The translations under genes and the position numbers were made by a program. Below, one piece after another: positions 14,715-54,263 of a stretch of DNA of 64,000 nt. The number at the start of each line of letters is the position of its first letter. Position 1 is the stretch's first letter. The notes under the pieces were generated by a model, which saw only the letters and a list, made by a program, of their open reading frames with translations, did no database searches and was not told the origin of the DNA. The DNA comes from a virus. The DNA lies in IMG/VR virus record IMGVR_UViG_3300032893_000018, positions 1-64,000 of that record, one strand, 5' to 3'.

Positions 14715-17018
14715 GTGCCGGTCCGGCTCGTCGTCGACAACCGCGTGCGCGTCGTCGGCAAGATCCCCGACGACGCGTCGGAGAAGCTTCGCGAGGAGTT
14801 CGAGCACGACAACCCGGACTTCTGGAAGAAGAAGCGGTTCAACCTCCGAGGGCACTTCCCGAGGAAGGCGCCGACGTGGACGTCGGTCGGTGGCGAGCTG
14901 TCGTTCCCTCGCGGCGGGTTCGACCGCGTGCGCGACGCGCTGAACACCGCGGGCGTGTCGTGGGAGATCGACGACCAGCGGCTCTCGGTGCCGGCGGAGA
15001 TCCCGCCGCACCGGGTCGAGCCGTGGCCGTTCCAGCGCGACGTGGTCGAGCGCGCGCGGCTGCACCAGTCCGGGATCCTGCGGAGCCCGGCGGGATGCTT
15101 GGTGGGCGACACGGTGATCGGCACGAACAGAGCGACTCTCGGCCGACCGATGAAGCTGGCCCACGTGGTGAGGATGTACAACGGAGGCAGTGCCAGCGGG
15201 CGGACCTGGGACACGCGGATCGAGACGAGGGTCCGGGCGCCGCACCAGGATGGGGCCGTCAGGCTGTCGCGTGTTCTCGGCGCGACGGCCAGCGGTGTGC
15301 GGCCCGTGTACGAGTTGAAGTTGGAATGCGGCCTGCGCGTCGAGGGGACGGCAGACCATCGCGTGATGACCCCGTTCGGTTGGGTCGCGATCGGGGACCT
15401 GGTTCCCGGCGCCGATTACGTGATGTTCGATGACACGCGGGGACGGCGTCCGATCAAGAGGGTTCTGAAGAAGTCGAAGCCGTCGTACCTGATGCGACAC
15501 TGCCCCGGGCATCCGCAGGCGGTGGCGAGGGGCAAGGGGTGCTTCTCGGTCGTTCTCCATCGGCTCGTCGTCGAGGCGCAGATGAACGGGCTGCCGCTCG
15601 AGGAGTTCATCAAGCGGGTGAGAGCCGGGGCGCGCGGGCTTCGATTCTTGAGCCCGGATTTGGTGGTGCACCACGATGACCGGGACACGAGGAACAACGA
15701 GCTCTCGAACCTGATCGTGATGACGGAGGCCGAGCACAAGCAGGTGCACGCGGCTGACTGCACGAGGAACTTCCAAGCCAGGTTGGCGCCGTCTCGAGTG
15801 GTTTCGGTCGAGTACTCCGGGGAGAAGGAGACCTACGATCTGGAGGTCGAGGACGCGGGGGCGTTCATGGCGAACGGGATCGCCGTGCACAACAGCGGCA
15901 AGTCGACCGCGCTCCTCCGGCTCATCTCGCAGCTCGGGCAGCGGACGCTCGTCGTCGTGTGGGCGGGCGGGCTCCTCCGCCAGTGGGTGCGCCGCGTGGC
16001 GAAGGAGCTCGGCGTGCCCGAGTCGTGGGTCGGGGTCGTCGACGGCAAGACGAAGCGGCTCGGGCCGATCACGATCGGGATGCAGCGCACGCTGCTGAAC
16101 CGCGTGGACGAGTACGCGGGCGAGTTCGGGCTCGTCGCCGCGGACGAGGTGCACCGCGCCGCCGCCGACGGGCTCTATCGACTCGTCGACGCGATGCCGG
16201 CGAAGTACCGCATCGGCGTGTCGGACGACGAGCGCCGCCGCGACCGGAAGGAGTTCCTGATCTACGACCTCTTCGGCCCGGTCGTCGCGGACGTCGACCA
16301 CAAGATGCTCGTCGACGAGGGCTACATCCTCGACGTCGATGTGCGCGTCGTGCCGACCGAGTTCGACGCGCCATGGTATCGCGACATCGACGCGCGCCAC
16401 GACGCGATCGACGGCGACGACGAGCAGGCGCAGAAGGCGCGCGCCCGGCTCAAGCGCGAGAAGGGCGAGCGGTTCGACGAACTCCTCGCCGCGATGCTCG
16501 CGGACGAGCGCCGCAACGCCCTGATCGCGCGGCTCGCCGTCGACGAGAAGCGCGCCGGCGAGCAGGTGATCCTAATGTCGCACCGGATCGACCACGTGCG
16601 CATGTACGACCGCCTGCTCGGCGAGCTCGGCCTGCGGTGCGGGTTCGTGATCGGCGGCGAGGAGAATCGCGTCGAGTACGAGAGCACGGTCGCGCGGCTA
16701 GCCGCCGGCAGGCTCGACGCGGCCGTCGGCACGTACCAGGCGATCGGTACGGGCATCGATCTCCCGAAGGTCGCCGCCGGGATCTTGACGACGCCGATCG
16801 CGAACAGCCAGGACGGGCGCTCGCAGTTCAAGCAGTTCCGCGGGCGGTTCGCGCGCACCGCCGACGGCAAGGACGGCGCGCGGCTCTACTACCCGTGGGA
16901 CGTGAGGGTCTACGGCGCGCGCCCGCTCGAGAACCTCTGCCGGTGGTCGCGCCGCGTCGTCGTGTGGTGGCATGACGCATGGACGCCCGGGCGGGCCGTG
17001 CTGAAGGAGATGAGCTGA
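14715..17018 (+). CDS. UvsW/XPB-type SF2 helicase precursor with intein
   Basis: 767 aa precursor; 501 aa after removal of the 266-aa intein (15096-15893). The intein interrupts Walker A: 'RSPAG' before and 'SGKSTALL' after, giving SPAGSGKST when spliced. Other motifs: ADEVH box (motif II), GVSDDERRRD in place of the GLTATPxR of many relatives, and C-terminal QFRGRFAR (motif VI). Such helicases unwind branched DNA in phage recombination-dependent replication (T4 UvsW). Activity depends on splicing. GTG start five bases after the previous stop. Confidence 0.85.
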   Translation: MPVRLVVDNRVRVVGKIPDDASEKLREEFEHDNPDFWKKKRFNLRGHFPRKAPTWTSVGGELSFPRGGFDRVRDALNTAGVSWEIDDQRLSVPAEIPPHRVEPWPFQRDVVERARLHQSGILRSPAGCLVGDTVIGTNRATLGRPMKLAHVVRMYNGGSASGRTWDTRIETRVRAPHQDGAVRLSRVLGATASGVRPVYELKLECGLRVEGTADHRVMTPFGWVAIGDLVPGADYVMFDDTRGRRPIKRVLKKSKPSYLMRHCPGHPQAVARGKGCFSVVLHRLVVEAQMNGLPLEEFIKRVRAGARGLRFLSPDLVVHHDDRDTRNNELSNLIVMTEAEHKQVHAADCTRNFQARLAPSRVVSVEYSGEKETYDLEVEDAGAFMANGIAVHNSGKSTALLRLISQLGQRTLVVVWAGGLLRQWVRRVAKELGVPESWVGVVDGKTKRLGPITIGMQRTLLNRVDEYAGEFGLVAADEVHRAAADGLYRLVDAMPAKYRIGVSDDERRRDRKEFLIYDLFGPVVADVDHKMLVDEGYILDVDVRVVPTEFDAPWYRDIDARHDAIDGDDEQAQKARARLKREKGERFDELLAAMLADERRNALIARLAVDEKRAGEQVILMSHRIDHVRMYDRLLGELGLRCGFVIGGEENRVEYESTVARLAAGRLDAAVGTYQAIGTGIDLPKVAAGILTTPIANSQDGRSQFKQFRGRFARTADGKDGARLYYPWDVRVYGARPLENLCRWSRRVVVWWHDAWTPGRAVLKEMS
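15096..15893 (+). mobile_element. Intein with HNH homing endonuclease in helicase Walker A
   Basis: 266 aa. Block A CLVGDTVIGT at the N-end, block B 'GLRVEGTADHRVMTPFGWVAIGDL', block F 'YDLEVEDAGAFMANGIA' and C-terminal VHN followed by Ser. The middle contains an HNH nuclease signature: a His in 'VVLHRLVVEA', then 'VVHHDDRDTRNNELSNLIVMTEAEHKQVH'. Ends are set by Cys1 (TGC at 15096) and Asn (AAC 15891-15893). A full-length homing intein. All splice residues are intact. Confidence 0.92.
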
Positions 17019-49293: not shown

Positions 49294-49590
49294 ATGCTTC
49301 GGGAGCTCACCGCCCGCGCGTTGTGGGTCGCTTCGAACAGCTGCGCACTGGCCGCGGACTTCCTGTCTCGGGCGGCGGATCGCGCGCTGGACGCCGCGCT
49401 GCTCATCGAACCCGCCGAGGAGCCCACGCACGAGGAGGTTGTGCGCGACGGTCCGGTGGTGTCGGACGAGGCGCGGCGGATGATCGCCGACCTGGAGGAG
49501 CGGCCACAACCGCTGCCTGTTGAAACCAAGCCGCTCGTCGGCTCGCTCGCCGATCGCGGGGCGATGGTCGGCAGGAAGTGGTCGCTGTGA
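49294..49590 (+). CDS. Hypothetical protein before portal, 98 aa
   Basis: ATG six bases after TATCCT, so probably leaderless; the longer 49279 start would lie inside the -10 box. Helical N-terminus, acidic middle. Ends in a GTGA overlap with the portal gene. Function unknown. Confidence 0.55.
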   Translation: MLRELTARALWVASNSCALAADFLSRAADRALDAALLIEPAEEPTHEEVVRDGPVVSDEARRMIADLEERPQPLPVETKPLVGSLADRGAMVGRKWSL

Positions 49591-52145
49591 CGGCCGTCGC
49601 GACGAACTACAAGTTCCCGACCGAGAAGAGCTCGGACGGATCGATCCGCGCCGTGTCGAGCTTCGGCCCCGACATGACGTCCTTCGGCCTGGACCCGTCG
49701 CACCTCGGGAAGGCCGGCTACGACGCGGAGGCGCTGTACAACAGCGAACGCGCCAAGGAGCTCGACTTCCGATCGAGCTTCTACCGGTGCACGAACCACA
49801 ATTGGAAGCCATTCAACATGGACGGCGGGCTGATTGGGCCGCAGGAGCGCAGCGCTCCGTTCGAGGGCGCTCAGCCCATGATGTCGACCATGTCGGGGCC
49901 GACGTCGTACGTGCCGCTGTCGGCGCGCCGCCCGCACGCGCCGGTTCGGATCGCGCGCACGATCGTGCGCGCGTTCACCGGGATGCTCTTCGGGCACAAT
50001 CGCTGGCCCGGGATCCGCAGCGACGACCCCGACACGCAGGCGTTCGGCGAGGCCGTGGCGAAGGCGGCGAACCTCCGGAACCGGTTCGTGCGGGCGCGGA
50101 ACCTCGCGGGCTCGTGCGGCACCGCGGCGCTCTCGTGGTTCTTCCGCCAGGGCTCGCCGCGCGTGCGGGTGCACACCGGGCGGTTCGTCCACGTGCTCGA
50201 GTGGGACGACGTCGACGACTACGTCGTGAGGCACGCGACGGAGCTCTACCAGAGCTGGGCGACGCGCGAGACCGAGGACGGGCCGCAGCGCTATCGCGTG
50301 TGGGTGCGTCGCGATTGGACGCCCGAGGCCGACGTCGTGTTCAAGCCGATCGAGGTGACGGGCGAGAGCCCCGAGCAGTGGGTGATCGATAAGGAGCGGA
50401 GCTTCGTTCATGGCGACGGGTTCGCCCACATCGTCTGGCTCACGAACTACCCGGACGACGACGAGCCGTCGGCGGTCGACGGGCAACCGGATTACGCCGA
50501 GCTGTACGACCCGATGGCGACGCTCGACGTGTCGAACTCCGTCGCCGTGCGCGGCGTGATGCGGAACCTCGACCCGACGCTCGTCGTGAAGATGGACCCG
50601 ATGGACGTCGGCGCGGCGATGATCAAGAAGGGCAGCGATAACGCCCTGGTCGTCGGCGAGCAGGGCGACGCGGATTACCTCACGATCGATGGAGATGTGG
50701 TGACGGCGGGCAAGGAGTTCGTCGGCACGCAGCGCGAGCAGATCCTGGAAGTCGCGCAGTGCGTGGTGCCCGATCCGAACGAGGTCGCCGCGGGCGGCAC
50801 GAGCTCGGTCGCGCAGAAGATGATGTACGCGCCGATGATCGGCACCGCCGACGTCCTTCGCGAGCCGTGCGGGCACGCGCTCGTCCAGCTGCTCGAACAG
50901 ATGAAGCTATCGGCTGCAAACGAGATGAGCCGACCGCCGGGCGAGGTGCAGGAGTACGACGTCGACCTGTCCGAGCCCGAGTCGGAGCCCGACGCGCTGG
51001 AGCAGGACGACGACGTTGAGAACTTCGAGGCCGAGGAGATGACAGCGGCGGACCAGGAGCAGCCGGCATCCGCGGTCGAGTACTACCTCGACCTCCCTCC
51101 GCGCGTAGTGATCGACGTCGTCGACGGTCAGAAGGTCGAGCGCAAGGTCGAGATCAAACCGGGCGAGGGGAAGTTCTGGCTGGAGTGGGGCGAGTACTTC
51201 CCGCCGACGTCACAGGACAAGCAGGCCGCCACCGAGGCGGTGTCGTCGGCGGCGGGCGGGAAGTCCGTGCTGTCGCAGCAGACCGCGGTCGAGCTCGCGT
51301 CATCGCTGTACAACAAGGACGCCACGGAGGAGTGGGCGCGCGTGCAGGCGGAGCGCGAGCAGGACGCACGCGAGACGGCGGGCATGTTCCCGGGCACGGG
51401 CGGCGAGGTCGATCCGAACGCGTCCGAGCCCGTCGACACCCCTGCGCCCGACGACGATCAGGAGACGTTGATCACGCCGACCGACATGAGCGTCGTCACG
51501 CTCGTGAACGAGGCGCGCGCGTCGGCAGGGCTCGGTCCGCTCCGCACGCCCGAGGGGCAGTCCGACCCCGACGGGTGGCTCACGGTCGAGGAGTTCCGCG
51601 CGAAGCGACAGGCGAAGGGCGAGCAGCAGGGCGCGGTCGAGGGCAAGGTCGCCGCGGGCGTCGACCCAGCGGATGCGGCAGCCGACGCGATCGATGCGCC
51701 GGCTGCCGATGCGCCGCCGACCGATGCTGCCGATCCGCCGACCGGCGGTGGCGACATCACGAACCAGGTCGACGGGATCCTGCAGGGCGATTTCCCCGAC
51801 GAGGCGTTCGACTGGGTGCACGACGCCAAGTGGACGGGCCCGACGAGCGTGCCGATTGACAAGATCGACACGTCGCAGCGCGACACGTGGCGCGCTAGCA
51901 AGGAGCCCGGCAAGGTCGCCGACTTCGCTGGCCTGATGCAGGCGGGCGGTGAGGACATCAAGCCGGTGATCCTCGTGCGATGGCCCGGTTCGAAGCAGCT
52001 GTTCGTCGCCGATGGTCACCACCGAGTGCTCGCGGCGGAGAAGGCGGGCGTGCCGGTGAAGGCGTTCATCGCCGACGTGCCGCAGCAGAACGGCCCGTGG
52101 ATGACGATGCACTCGAAGCAGATCCCGAAGGCGGCAGGGCAATGA
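49587..52145 (+). CDS. Portal protein with C-terminal ParB-like domain
   Basis: 852 aa. Residues 1-~620 look like a phage portal: 'RSSFYRCTNHNWKPFNMDGG', 'RPHAPVRIARTIVRAFTGMLFG', a wing/clip region and 'GTSSVAQKMMYAPMIGTADVLREPCG'. Acidic linkers follow. Residues ~750-830 form a ParB/sulfiredoxin-like domain ('VPIDKIDTSQRDTWRASKEPGKV.....IKPVILVRWPGSKQLFVADGHHRVLAAEKAG'), with VADGHHR in the place of the GxxRR box. The portal forms the 12-mer DNA gate. Why it carries a ParB-like domain is not known. GTG start chosen from the overlap. Confidence 0.75.
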   Translation: MTAVATNYKFPTEKSSDGSIRAVSSFGPDMTSFGLDPSHLGKAGYDAEALYNSERAKELDFRSSFYRCTNHNWKPFNMDGGLIGPQERSAPFEGAQPMMSTMSGPTSYVPLSARRPHAPVRIARTIVRAFTGMLFGHNRWPGIRSDDPDTQAFGEAVAKAANLRNRFVRARNLAGSCGTAALSWFFRQGSPRVRVHTGRFVHVLEWDDVDDYVVRHATELYQSWATRETEDGPQRYRVWVRRDWTPEADVVFKPIEVTGESPEQWVIDKERSFVHGDGFAHIVWLTNYPDDDEPSAVDGQPDYAELYDPMATLDVSNSVAVRGVMRNLDPTLVVKMDPMDVGAAMIKKGSDNALVVGEQGDADYLTIDGDVVTAGKEFVGTQREQILEVAQCVVPDPNEVAAGGTSSVAQKMMYAPMIGTADVLREPCGHALVQLLEQMKLSAANEMSRPPGEVQEYDVDLSEPESEPDALEQDDDVENFEAEEMTAADQEQPASAVEYYLDLPPRVVIDVVDGQKVERKVEIKPGEGKFWLEWGEYFPPTSQDKQAATEAVSSAAGGKSVLSQQTAVELASSLYNKDATEEWARVQAEREQDARETAGMFPGTGGEVDPNASEPVDTPAPDDDQETLITPTDMSVVTLVNEARASAGLGPLRTPEGQSDPDGWLTVEEFRAKRQAKGEQQGAVEGKVAAGVDPADAAADAIDAPAADAPPTDAADPPTGGGDITNQVDGILQGDFPDEAFDWVHDAKWTGPTSVPIDKIDTSQRDTWRASKEPGKVADFAGLMQAGGEDIKPVILVRWPGSKQLFVADGHHRVLAAEKAGVPVKAFIADVPQQNGPWMTMHSKQIPKAAGQ

Positions 52146-52277: not shown

Positions 52278-54263
52278 ATGGCCGCGCGGAAACCGCCACC
52301 GCACGAGCTCGTCAAGGCGACGCGCGACGACGCGAACGCGTACAAGGGTCGCGCCGATCCCGTGCGCGTGCTCCGGGCGAACCGCGAGCAGGTGATCCGG
52401 CTTGCGCAGGGCAAGGGCGTCGGCCGCATGCGCGAGGTGCTGAAGCGCGCGGAGAAGGCGCTCGCGTCGCGCCTCGGCTCGGGCCCGCTTGCCGGTGGCA
52501 AGGAGGGGTTCTCCGCGGTGCAGCGCCGGCTCGCGCTTGCACAGATCCGCGCGGTGGTCGGCGACGTGGGCGATGGCGTGAAGGACGTCGTCGTCGATGG
52601 TGCGGGGCCTCTCGCGGAGGACGCGGGCGCGGGCGTGATCGACTACATGCGCGCGTCGGATCGGAAGTTCAGAGGCATCGTCGAGCGGCTACCGATCCGC
52701 GAGGCCGCGGTGCTCGACCGCGCGACGCAGGGCGCCGAGAGCAGCGTGCTTCACCGGCTGATGGGCGACCCGAGGAAGGGTCCGGGGATCCTCAAGCGGT
52801 ACGGCGACGGCGTCGTCGAGCGGTTCGAGCAGGCGCTGCAGCAGCGCTTCCTGCAGAAGACATCCTGGGAGGACACGCGCGCCGCGATCGTCGCCGAGTC
52901 GCCGTTCCTGCAGGGCGTGCCCGGGCACTGGGCGGAGCGCATCGTGCGCACCGAGTGCTTAGTCGGCGAGACGCCGGTTTCCGGAGCGGTGGTACGGGCA
53001 GCTTTTCGCCGGTGGTACGAGGGCCCGATCGTCGAGTTCATCACCGACAATGGCCGCCACTTCGCCACAACCCCGAATCACCCAATGCTGACGAGGCGCG
53101 GATGGGTCGCGGCGGCGGCTCTCAACGATGGTGACGATCTGGTCTGCTACCGAGGGCAGCAGCACGCGCGTGCGCCTGGCGACGAACACCGTGAGCACGC
53201 ACCATCCACGGTCGCTCAGATATTCGATTCGCTCACGGAGATACGGGTCCTTCAGCGGCGACGCGGTTCCAAGGACGACTTCCACGGCGACGGGATGCAG
53301 CGCGAGATCGAGATTGCGAGTGCCGACCGGGAGCTGGAGGTCGGGGTGTACGCCCCTCTCTTCAAGCCACTGTGCGATCAGATCCTCACCCCAACCCACG
53401 CGACGCGCCCTGCTTTTTGCCGCAATTGCGGACGCCTTCTGTCGATCGATGAGCAGGCGTGCTTCTGCAGAGCTCCGAATTTGTACTCCCTCCATACGCA
53501 AACGGTAGAGCACGCCGCGTTTATCGATGCCGAACTCGCGAGCGAGACTCTTGATGCTCTCGCCGGAGACGTAGCGTTTCGCAATCGCTTGCGTGGGCAC
53601 CTCGCCGCGGAACCTGGGTGGCACTCCGCCCCTGGTATGAAACGCAAGGCGAGCCGCCGATCGGGTGCGGGCCTTTCCGATCTTGCGCAGATGCTTGCGC
53701 AGAGTGTGGACGTTGGCTCCGGCTCGGGCGGCCGCGTCGCCGGTGCTCGCGCCTGCGACGTAGAGTTCGATGGCGTGGTCGAGGTTCGAATGCGCGAGTT
53801 TCGAGGACACGTCTACAACCTGACCACGTGGGACGGATACTTCTGCATTGCCGGAGCTTATACCGGAAACACGATGGGTGTGTATAACCGCGCGTCGCTC
53901 GACGCGTCCCGCGAGCTCGATGACCAGCTCGGCGACGTCGTGAAGATCCTGTGCGCCACGTTCGACGGTCGCACGGCGTGGGACAGCTACCTCGTGCACG
54001 GGCAGATCCGGCGCGTCGACGAGCCGTTCGAATGCCCCGAGTATAACGGGTCGGTGCATCGGTACATGCATCCGCCGAACCGCCCGAACGATCGCGAGGT
54101 GGTCGTGACGCACCGGGTGGCGTGGCCGATCCCCCCGGAGCTCCGCCCGCGGCCGAGGAGCGAGGCGGCGTCGCGGTGGGCCGACGCGGGGTACTCGCGG
54201 GCGATGCCGGCGACGCCGCGACAGACCACCGTGCCGCTTGAGCGGTTCGGCAGGGTCGCTTGA
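52278..54263 (+). CDS. MuF/SPP1 gp7-like minor head protein precursor with intein
   Basis: 661 aa precursor, 356 aa after removal of a 305-aa intein (52956-53870). The extein's helical head and the 'WEDTRAAIVAESPFLQGVPGHWAERIVRTE' followed after splicing by 'TMGVYNRASLDASRE' give the RTE...YN motif of phage head morphogenesis proteins. The intein sits exactly inside that motif. Such proteins join the portal inside the head and can be ejected with DNA. Downstream of portal and the 43-aa protein, as expected. Confidence 0.75.
   Translation: MAARKPPPHELVKATRDDANAYKGRADPVRVLRANREQVIRLAQGKGVGRMREVLKRAEKALASRLGSGPLAGGKEGFSAVQRRLALAQIRAVVGDVGDGVKDVVVDGAGPLAEDAGAGVIDYMRASDRKFRGIVERLPIREAAVLDRATQGAESSVLHRLMGDPRKGPGILKRYGDGVVERFEQALQQRFLQKTSWEDTRAAIVAESPFLQGVPGHWAERIVRTECLVGETPVSGAVVRAAFRRWYEGPIVEFITDNGRHFATTPNHPMLTRRGWVAAAALNDGDDLVCYRGQQHARAPGDEHREHAPSTVAQIFDSLTEIRVLQRRRGSKDDFHGDGMQREIEIASADRELEVGVYAPLFKPLCDQILTPTHATRPAFCRNCGRLLSIDEQACFCRAPNLYSLHTQTVEHAAFIDAELASETLDALAGDVAFRNRLRGHLAAEPGWHSAPGMKRKASRRSGAGLSDLAQMLAQSVDVGSGSGGRVAGARACDVEFDGVVEVRMREFRGHVYNLTTWDGYFCIAGAYTGNTMGVYNRASLDASRELDDQLGDVVKILCATFDGRTAWDSYLVHGQIRRVDEPFECPEYNGSVHRYMHPPNRPNDREVVVTHRVAWPIPPELRPRPRSEAASRWADAGYSRAMPATPRQTTVPLERFGRVA
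52956..53870 (+). mobile_element. Intein in minor head gene with endonuclease on opposite strand
   Basis: 305 aa. Block A CLVGETPVSG, block B 'NGRHFATTPNHPMLTRRGWVAAAALNDGDDLV', block F 'RGHVYNLTTWDGYFCIAGA', C-terminal TGN then Thr. Penultimate His is replaced by Gly. The ~200 residues between the splicing blocks do not resemble any sense-strand endonuclease; the complementary strand encodes one (52959-53810). Ends set by TGC 52956 and AAC 53868-53870. Confidence 0.85.
52959..53810 (-). CDS. Vsr-like (EDxHD-type) homing endonuclease, antisense inside intein
   Basis: 283 aa from the GTG at 53810; the frame is open further upstream, but that is shadow of the extein. Two HTH-type segments: 'LDHAIELYVAGASTGDAAARAGANVHTLRKHLRKIG' and 'AIAKRYVSGESIKSLAREFGIDKRGVLYRLRMEG'. 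Then a Vsr/PD-(D/E)XK-like core: 'GEDLIAQWLEERGVHPDLQLPVGTRNLDLALHPVAVEV' (Glu; Asp of NLDLAL; Glu of AVEV), 'RERIEYLSDRGWCVLTVFV'. Stop TAA (52961-52959) is the complement of intein codon 2 (TTA). Codons are in exact register with the sense frame. Confidence 0.8.
   Translation of the reverse strand: MSSKLAHSNLDHAIELYVAGASTGDAAARAGANVHTLRKHLRKIGKARTRSAARLAFHTRGGVPPRFRGEVPTQAIAKRYVSGESIKSLAREFGIDKRGVLYRLRMEGVQIRSSAEARLLIDRQKASAIAAKSRARRVGWGEDLIAQWLEERGVHPDLQLPVGTRNLDLALHPVAVEVVLGTASPLKDPYLRERIEYLSDRGWCVLTVFVARRTRVLLPSVADQIVTIVESRRRDPSAPRQHWVIRGCGEVAAIVGDELDDRALVPPAKSCPYHRSGNRRLAD

Follow-up and report, generated by a model that had tools for sequence, protein, structure and literature searches.

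The MuF-type head gene and its intein

The window, a 64,000-nucleotide stretch taken from a 93,897-base virus record, carries a portal-like gene followed by the gene for a MuF-type minor head protein (Table 1). The MuF gene holds an in-frame intein at the motif RTE/TMG (a slash marks an insertion point throughout), and its sense frame stays open for all 305 intein codons. The original prediction, made from the DNA letters, had placed an intein with complete splicing blocks A, B, and F here, and its coordinates proved exact. The window extein has no match among annotated phages and a single match in IMG/VR.

Table 1. Features of the MuF locus and of the two coding strands of its intein
Feature	Positions	Strand	Evidence or remark
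MuF-type minor head protein gene with in-frame intein	52278–54263	+	PHROG head protein match 1e-30; intein-free homologue L127 46% identical
N-extein of MuF gene	52278–52955	+	
Intein, 305 codons, Cys1 to Asn305, inserted at RTE/T	52956–53870	+	Pfam PF14890 (Intein_splicing) 3e-7; empty site in L127
N-terminal splicing region, blocks A and B (CLVGETPV, TPNHP)	52956–53150	+	AlphaFold2 pLDDT 90–97 over about residues 1–60; Foldseek intein matches; sense-silent substitutions in relatives
C-terminal splicing region, block F GHVYNL; YTGN then Thr+1	53781–53870	+	pLDDT 89–98; C-block profile; sense-silent substitutions in last 20 codons
C-extein of MuF gene	53871–54260	+	
Putative antisense homing endonuclease ORF, 283 aa	52959–53810	-	AlphaFold2 mean pLDDT 86.3
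Likely antisense start, GTG	53808–53810	-	Opposite block-F His
First helix-turn-helix unit, residues 7–43	53682–53792	-	AlphaFold2 helices; family profile matches 2lvs 3e-9
Second helix-turn-helix unit, residues 73–106	53493–53594	-	HTH_28 9e-6; AlphaFold2
EDxHD/Vsr-like nuclease domain, residues 142–234	53109–53387	-	E142, D168, E177 invariant; 3r3p by sequence and fold
Shine-Dalgarno-like AGG upstream of GTG	53819–53821	-	GGAGG in 30/73 relatives
Candidate antisense -10 element, TATAAG	53857–53862	-	Perfect TATAAT in 26/73 relatives

The two ends of the intein are predicted to adopt a HINT fold, with Foldseek intein matches at probabilities of up to 1.00, and the profile of the A6 sub-group matches the solved inteins 2jmz (1.5e-11) and 2imz. 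C1, the block-B residues T39 and H42, and N305 are invariant in the 42 members of this sub-group. The nucleophile at position +1 is a threonine in the window intein. The penultimate residue is Gly304 rather than histidine, both here and in other members at the RTE site; all RTE-site relatives read GN/T or GN/C, while a penultimate histidine is common, without being universal, in the remaining members. This histidine is no absolute requirement in known inteins.

The middle of the intein had been described as unrecognisable on the sense strand, and it remains so. Profile searches find in it no recognisable domain and no known intein endonuclease or nuclease family, and sense residues 161–264 have an AlphaFold2 pLDDT below 50, which predicts disorder. 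A weak toxin-family match in one sense member (E 0.01) was taken as chance. PHROG_15127 matches sense residues 2–136, and a string, DFHGDG..EVEIV, is conserved in the sense middle; its DFHGDG portion is the mirror of the catalytic PVAVEV on the antisense strand.

A predicted endonuclease gene on the opposite strand

The minus strand, in exact codon register with the intein, is open for 303 codons from the intein end and closes with a TAA stop that pairs with sense codon 2 (TTA). The remaining four frames of the window intein contain 4–7 stops each. An AlphaFold2 model of the antisense protein, built with 60 relatives, places two helix-turn-helix units in front of a nuclease domain with the predicted topology alpha-beta-beta-beta-alpha-beta-alpha. 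Among solved structures it matches I-Bth0305I (3r3p) best, in the catalytic domain of that enzyme, both by profile (5e-5) and as the top Foldseek match (probability 1.00, E 0.018). The antisense family profile also matches the endonuclease-like 3hrl (3e-6), and 11 of 18 antisense proteins match the MTES_1575 family.

By sequence and fold, the antisense protein belongs to the EDxHD/Vsr-like nuclease family. E142, N166, D168, and E177 are identical in 60 of 60 antisense sequences. There is no literal EDxHD string: the catalytic residues are E142, D168, and E177, and the histidine position of the motif is occupied by histidine in 38 of 60 antisense sequences and by serine in the window copy. Profile searches and structure prediction of both translations otherwise bear out the layout proposed from the sequence, with splicing ends on the sense strand and two helix-turn-helix segments plus a Vsr-like nuclease core on the antisense strand, in exact register.

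A widespread class of inteins

A search for homologues of the antisense protein returned many, all of them antisense inside inteins. With tblastn, the protein is found in 37 phage records, nearly always antisense to head genes, in phages of Gordonia, Pseudomonas, Haemophilus/Aggregatibacter, Vibrio, Mycobacterium, and Cronobacter. Because the alignment of 18 members was too heterogeneous for pattern scanning, sub-groups were used instead; IMG/VR scans with three sub-families yielded 109 further loci, and two of these scans relied on patterns independent of the splicing blocks. In 125 of 125 loci the endonuclease lies antisense, in register, and inside an intein whose sense frame has 0 stops, and no free-standing or sense-oriented copy of the endonuclease occurs among them. 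No relative of the closest four antisense proteins was found in the 84,980 bacterial and archaeal genomes scanned.

Removal of near-duplicates leaves 89 non-redundant loci, with inteins of 267–370 codons and 39–69% GC. Host sites include (i) two MuF motifs (RTE/T; HPN/CRC and similar), (ii) phage minor capsid protein 2, (iii) dCMP deaminase, and (iv) a protease-like gene. Antisense-endonuclease inteins are an old, diversified class with their own antisense start, Shine-Dalgarno sequence, and -10 element, rather than a one-off invasion.

Several loci deserve separate mention. The gene at 616–1968 of L004 (KX853510.1) is annotated as a "putative head morphogenesis protein", yet it encodes a dCMP/cytidine deaminase (PF00383 6e-11); the annotated name probably came from its intein. 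In E. coli phage fEg-Eco06 (L131, PQ141284.1, 369–2306), the intein occupies another MuF site (TTC/.../RARDG); it carries the mirror motif DFYGDG...KIDIVRAD and is therefore probably of the same antisense type. In L027 (1378–5292, minus strand), a single open frame of a MuF gene contains both a NUDIX domain (4e-18) and an intein of the antisense-endonuclease type.

Selection on both strands

Both strands of the intein are under selection, in different parts. In codon-aligned relatives, the splicing ends vary at sense position 3, where changes leave the sense protein unaltered. The middle varies at sense position 1, the third position of the antisense codon, where changes leave the antisense protein unaltered. 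Across 12 independent pairs, the splicing ends show 150 sense-silent versus 31 antisense-silent changes and the middle 106 versus 340, respectively. Selection switches strand at about codon 65 and again about 30 codons before the intein end. The middles of L014 and LP31, which align without gaps as a close pair from Salmonella phages, differ in 24 codons, of which 20 changes are antisense-silent and 3 sense-silent.

The openness of the sense frame is itself actively kept by selection. Antisense leucine or serine codons that would create a sense stop number 0 versus 308 expected from local codon usage (about 500–2000 codons per locus). The sequences in all these tests are related, which inflates the statistics and makes P values indicative only. 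With TTA, CTA, and TCA avoided and both strands open in register, the inteins are ambigrammatic. The stops in the other four frames, the antisense-silent substitutions in the middle, and the identical layout in all 125 loci together place the antisense frame beyond chance.

Expression signals within the splicing domain

In 73 of 89 loci, the codon of the block-F histidine faces the antisense start, which is ATG in 63 and GTG in 10; the consensus that precedes this start is TGGAGGTTGTAAAC. Synonymous codon choice in the splicing domain follows these signals. The block-F histidine codon is CAT, the complement of an antisense ATG, in 63 of 73 cases (26 expected), the block-F leucine codon is CTC in 64 of 81 (22 expected), and the glutamine codon is CAA in 34 of 48 (14 expected). 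Leucine and histidine codons of the N-terminal splicing region, which served as controls, are unbiased in this respect, with counts near or below expectation.

A Shine-Dalgarno sequence of at least 4 bases is present in 51 of 73 relatives versus 18 ± 3 in synonymous shuffles. Opposite the last intein residues, a perfect TATAAT occurs in 26 of 73 versus 2.0 ± 1.3 in shuffles. The signals of the window copy (GTG, AGG, TATAAG) are weaker than those of most relatives. A scan of the window for a two-hexamer consensus promoter found none, and the family test brings out the -10 element alone. In loci without the block-F histidine, a new Shine-Dalgarno sequence and ATG often appear a few codons away, which suggests that the antisense start is re-made when lost. 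Loci L033, L055, L061, and L106 are of this kind, with the histidine lost or shifted and a Shine-Dalgarno sequence plus ATG at another nearby spot.

Mobility and descent

Intein-free forms of the host genes exist. L127, the MuF gene of another virus, has a contiguous empty site that reads RTE/LMG. Among Jerseyvirus (Jersey-type) phages, the intein is present in some genes, and many others, at identities of up to 95%, lack exactly its 816 bp; PBSE191 also has an empty site. Distances between splicing ends and between endonucleases are correlated (r 0.45, 0 of 999 permutations), and the splicing-end tree and the endonuclease tree both group the RTE-site inteins. These observations fit a single early invasion, after which splicing domain and endonuclease descended together and moved from site to site. 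The invasion of a mini-intein in reverse orientation, proposed at the outset, is supported overall, and neither of the two outcomes named beforehand as counting against it appeared: the antisense protein does have homologues, and the sense middle resembles no known intein endonuclease. The idea that the arrangement persisted because the reverse complement has no stops was too weak, since openness is selected.

Proposed mechanism and alternative explanations

In all likelihood the locus is an ambigrammatic homing intein, with a splicing domain on the plus strand and, on the minus strand, a separate endonuclease gene with its own expression signals. On the plus strand, translation of the host minor head gene would run on across the insert, which the HINT domain formed by the two intein ends would then excise, joining the exteins. 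On the minus strand, in exact register, the same DNA would serve as the gene for a site-specific endonuclease made of two helix-turn-helix units and an EDxHD/Vsr-like nuclease. The start codon of this gene would face block F, which also encodes the Shine-Dalgarno sequence ahead of it, and the gene probably carries a -10 promoter element of its own where the intein ends on the other strand; a separate antisense transcript would then give rise to the endonuclease. The enzyme is predicted to cut intein-free copies of the gene, with repair copying the intein in (homing), while the sense middle would act as a passive linker kept stop-free.

It could be argued that the antisense frame is a by-product of GC-rich DNA that mirrors a conserved gene, the real middle being an unknown sense domain. 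The 63% GC content of the window, the conserved DFHGDG..EVEIV string, and the PHROG_15127 match are in line with such a reading, but it is very improbable: the middle substitutions at sense position 1 are antisense-silent, the antisense ORF is also open in inteins of 39–50% GC whose other frames contain up to 37 stops, and the nuclease fold of the antisense protein is a known one, with invariant catalytic residues. In addition, no fold is predicted for the sense middle, and DFHGDG mirrors the catalytic PVAVEV. The substitution pattern in the present sample already refutes this reading.

Equally improbable is an intein dead on the sense strand, in which a free-standing endonuclease gene landed and the sense frame is open by chance. 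Against it stand the 125 loci without a sense stop, the lack of stop-making codons where 308 are expected, the dominance of sense-silent substitutions in the splicing ends, and the invariance of Cys1, the block-B threonine and histidine, and the terminal asparagine in A6; its attractions are the unstructured sense middle and the penultimate glycine, instead of histidine, of the window copy. An antisense gene that is real but no longer homing, having been taken over as, for example, a regulator or for phage exclusion, is unlikely. Phage homing enzymes can serve exclusion, the gene is found almost only in capsid-assembly genes, and its N-terminus is rich in helix-turn-helix units. However, its catalytic residues are invariant, near-identical phages have empty sites, and hosts and insertion sites are disjoint, as they are with homing elements.

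Relation to known systems

EDxHD homing endonucleases have reportedly been noted at split-intein loci and in introns (Dassa, 2009). Conventional inteins, with LAGLIDADG or HNH endonucleases on the sense strand, share with the present class the HINT ends, conserved host motifs, a nuclease core between blocks B and F, and empty sites. Here, instead, the endonuclease is a separate opposite-strand protein with its own start, and the sense middle is without a domain. EDxHD (Vsr-like) homing endonucleases such as I-Bth0305I are associated with introns and split-intein loci (review PMC3943268). The antisense protein resembles I-Bth0305I in the sequence and fold of its nuclease domain and in the DNA-binding modules in front of it; the known enzymes, however, are found in introns or free-standing, whereas this gene lies wholly within the reverse complement of an intact intein.

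The ShiLan element hides an HNH endonuclease in a same-strand shifted frame of an insertion (PMC11855218). In both systems, an insertion that leaves the host frame open contains an endonuclease in a different frame. ShiLan differs in that its endonuclease is on the same strand, is of the HNH type, and comes without splicing domains, the host frame being thought to stay as a loop; here, the opposite strand is used and a splicing domain is present. Ambigrammatic narnaviruses keep a reverse frame in codon register open through avoidance of TTA, CTA, and TCA (PMC6884476, PMC8155312), which is also the case here. They are RNA viruses in which a working reverse-ORF protein is disputed, whereas the protein here has a known fold and is under purifying selection.

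No antisense intein endonuclease was found in the literature compared, although a prior description is possible, as preprint 10.1101/2025.01.02.630785 (whose title concerns actinobacteriophage inteins and non-canonical architecture) and Dassa 2009 lie outside the comparison. On balance, we favor the view that these inteins are an undescribed, widespread class of mobile element, in which splicing domain and mobilizing enzyme occupy opposite strands, and the promoter, ribosome-binding site, and start codon of the enzyme are written in the synonymous codons of the splicing domain, so that endonuclease expression would be uncoupled from the late capsid gene.

If this is so, the inteins provide a clear natural case of two unrelated, known-fold proteins with different functions on opposite strands of one DNA, an arrangement maintained in about 90 distinct lineages, in which codon choice reveals the antisense expression signals. 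They would also (i) offer a route by which an endonuclease can enter an intein and yet stay separate from the intein polypeptide, (ii) explain phage head-gene inteins that seem endonuclease-less, and (iii) warn that gene callers miss such antisense genes. The origin and persistence of overlapping genes, as well as homing timed apart from host-gene expression, would become testable.

Other features of the window

A second, conventional intein is present in the same phage at 14715–17018 (plus strand), where it interrupts the Walker A motif of an SF2-like helicase (SAGC/LVGDT...AVHN/SGKST). It has an HNH motif on the sense strand and matches TIGR01443 (7e-8). The portal-like protein encoded at 49578–52145 (plus strand) ends, as judged by eye only, in a ParB-like stretch (VPIDKIDTSQR...VADGHHRVLAAEKAG).
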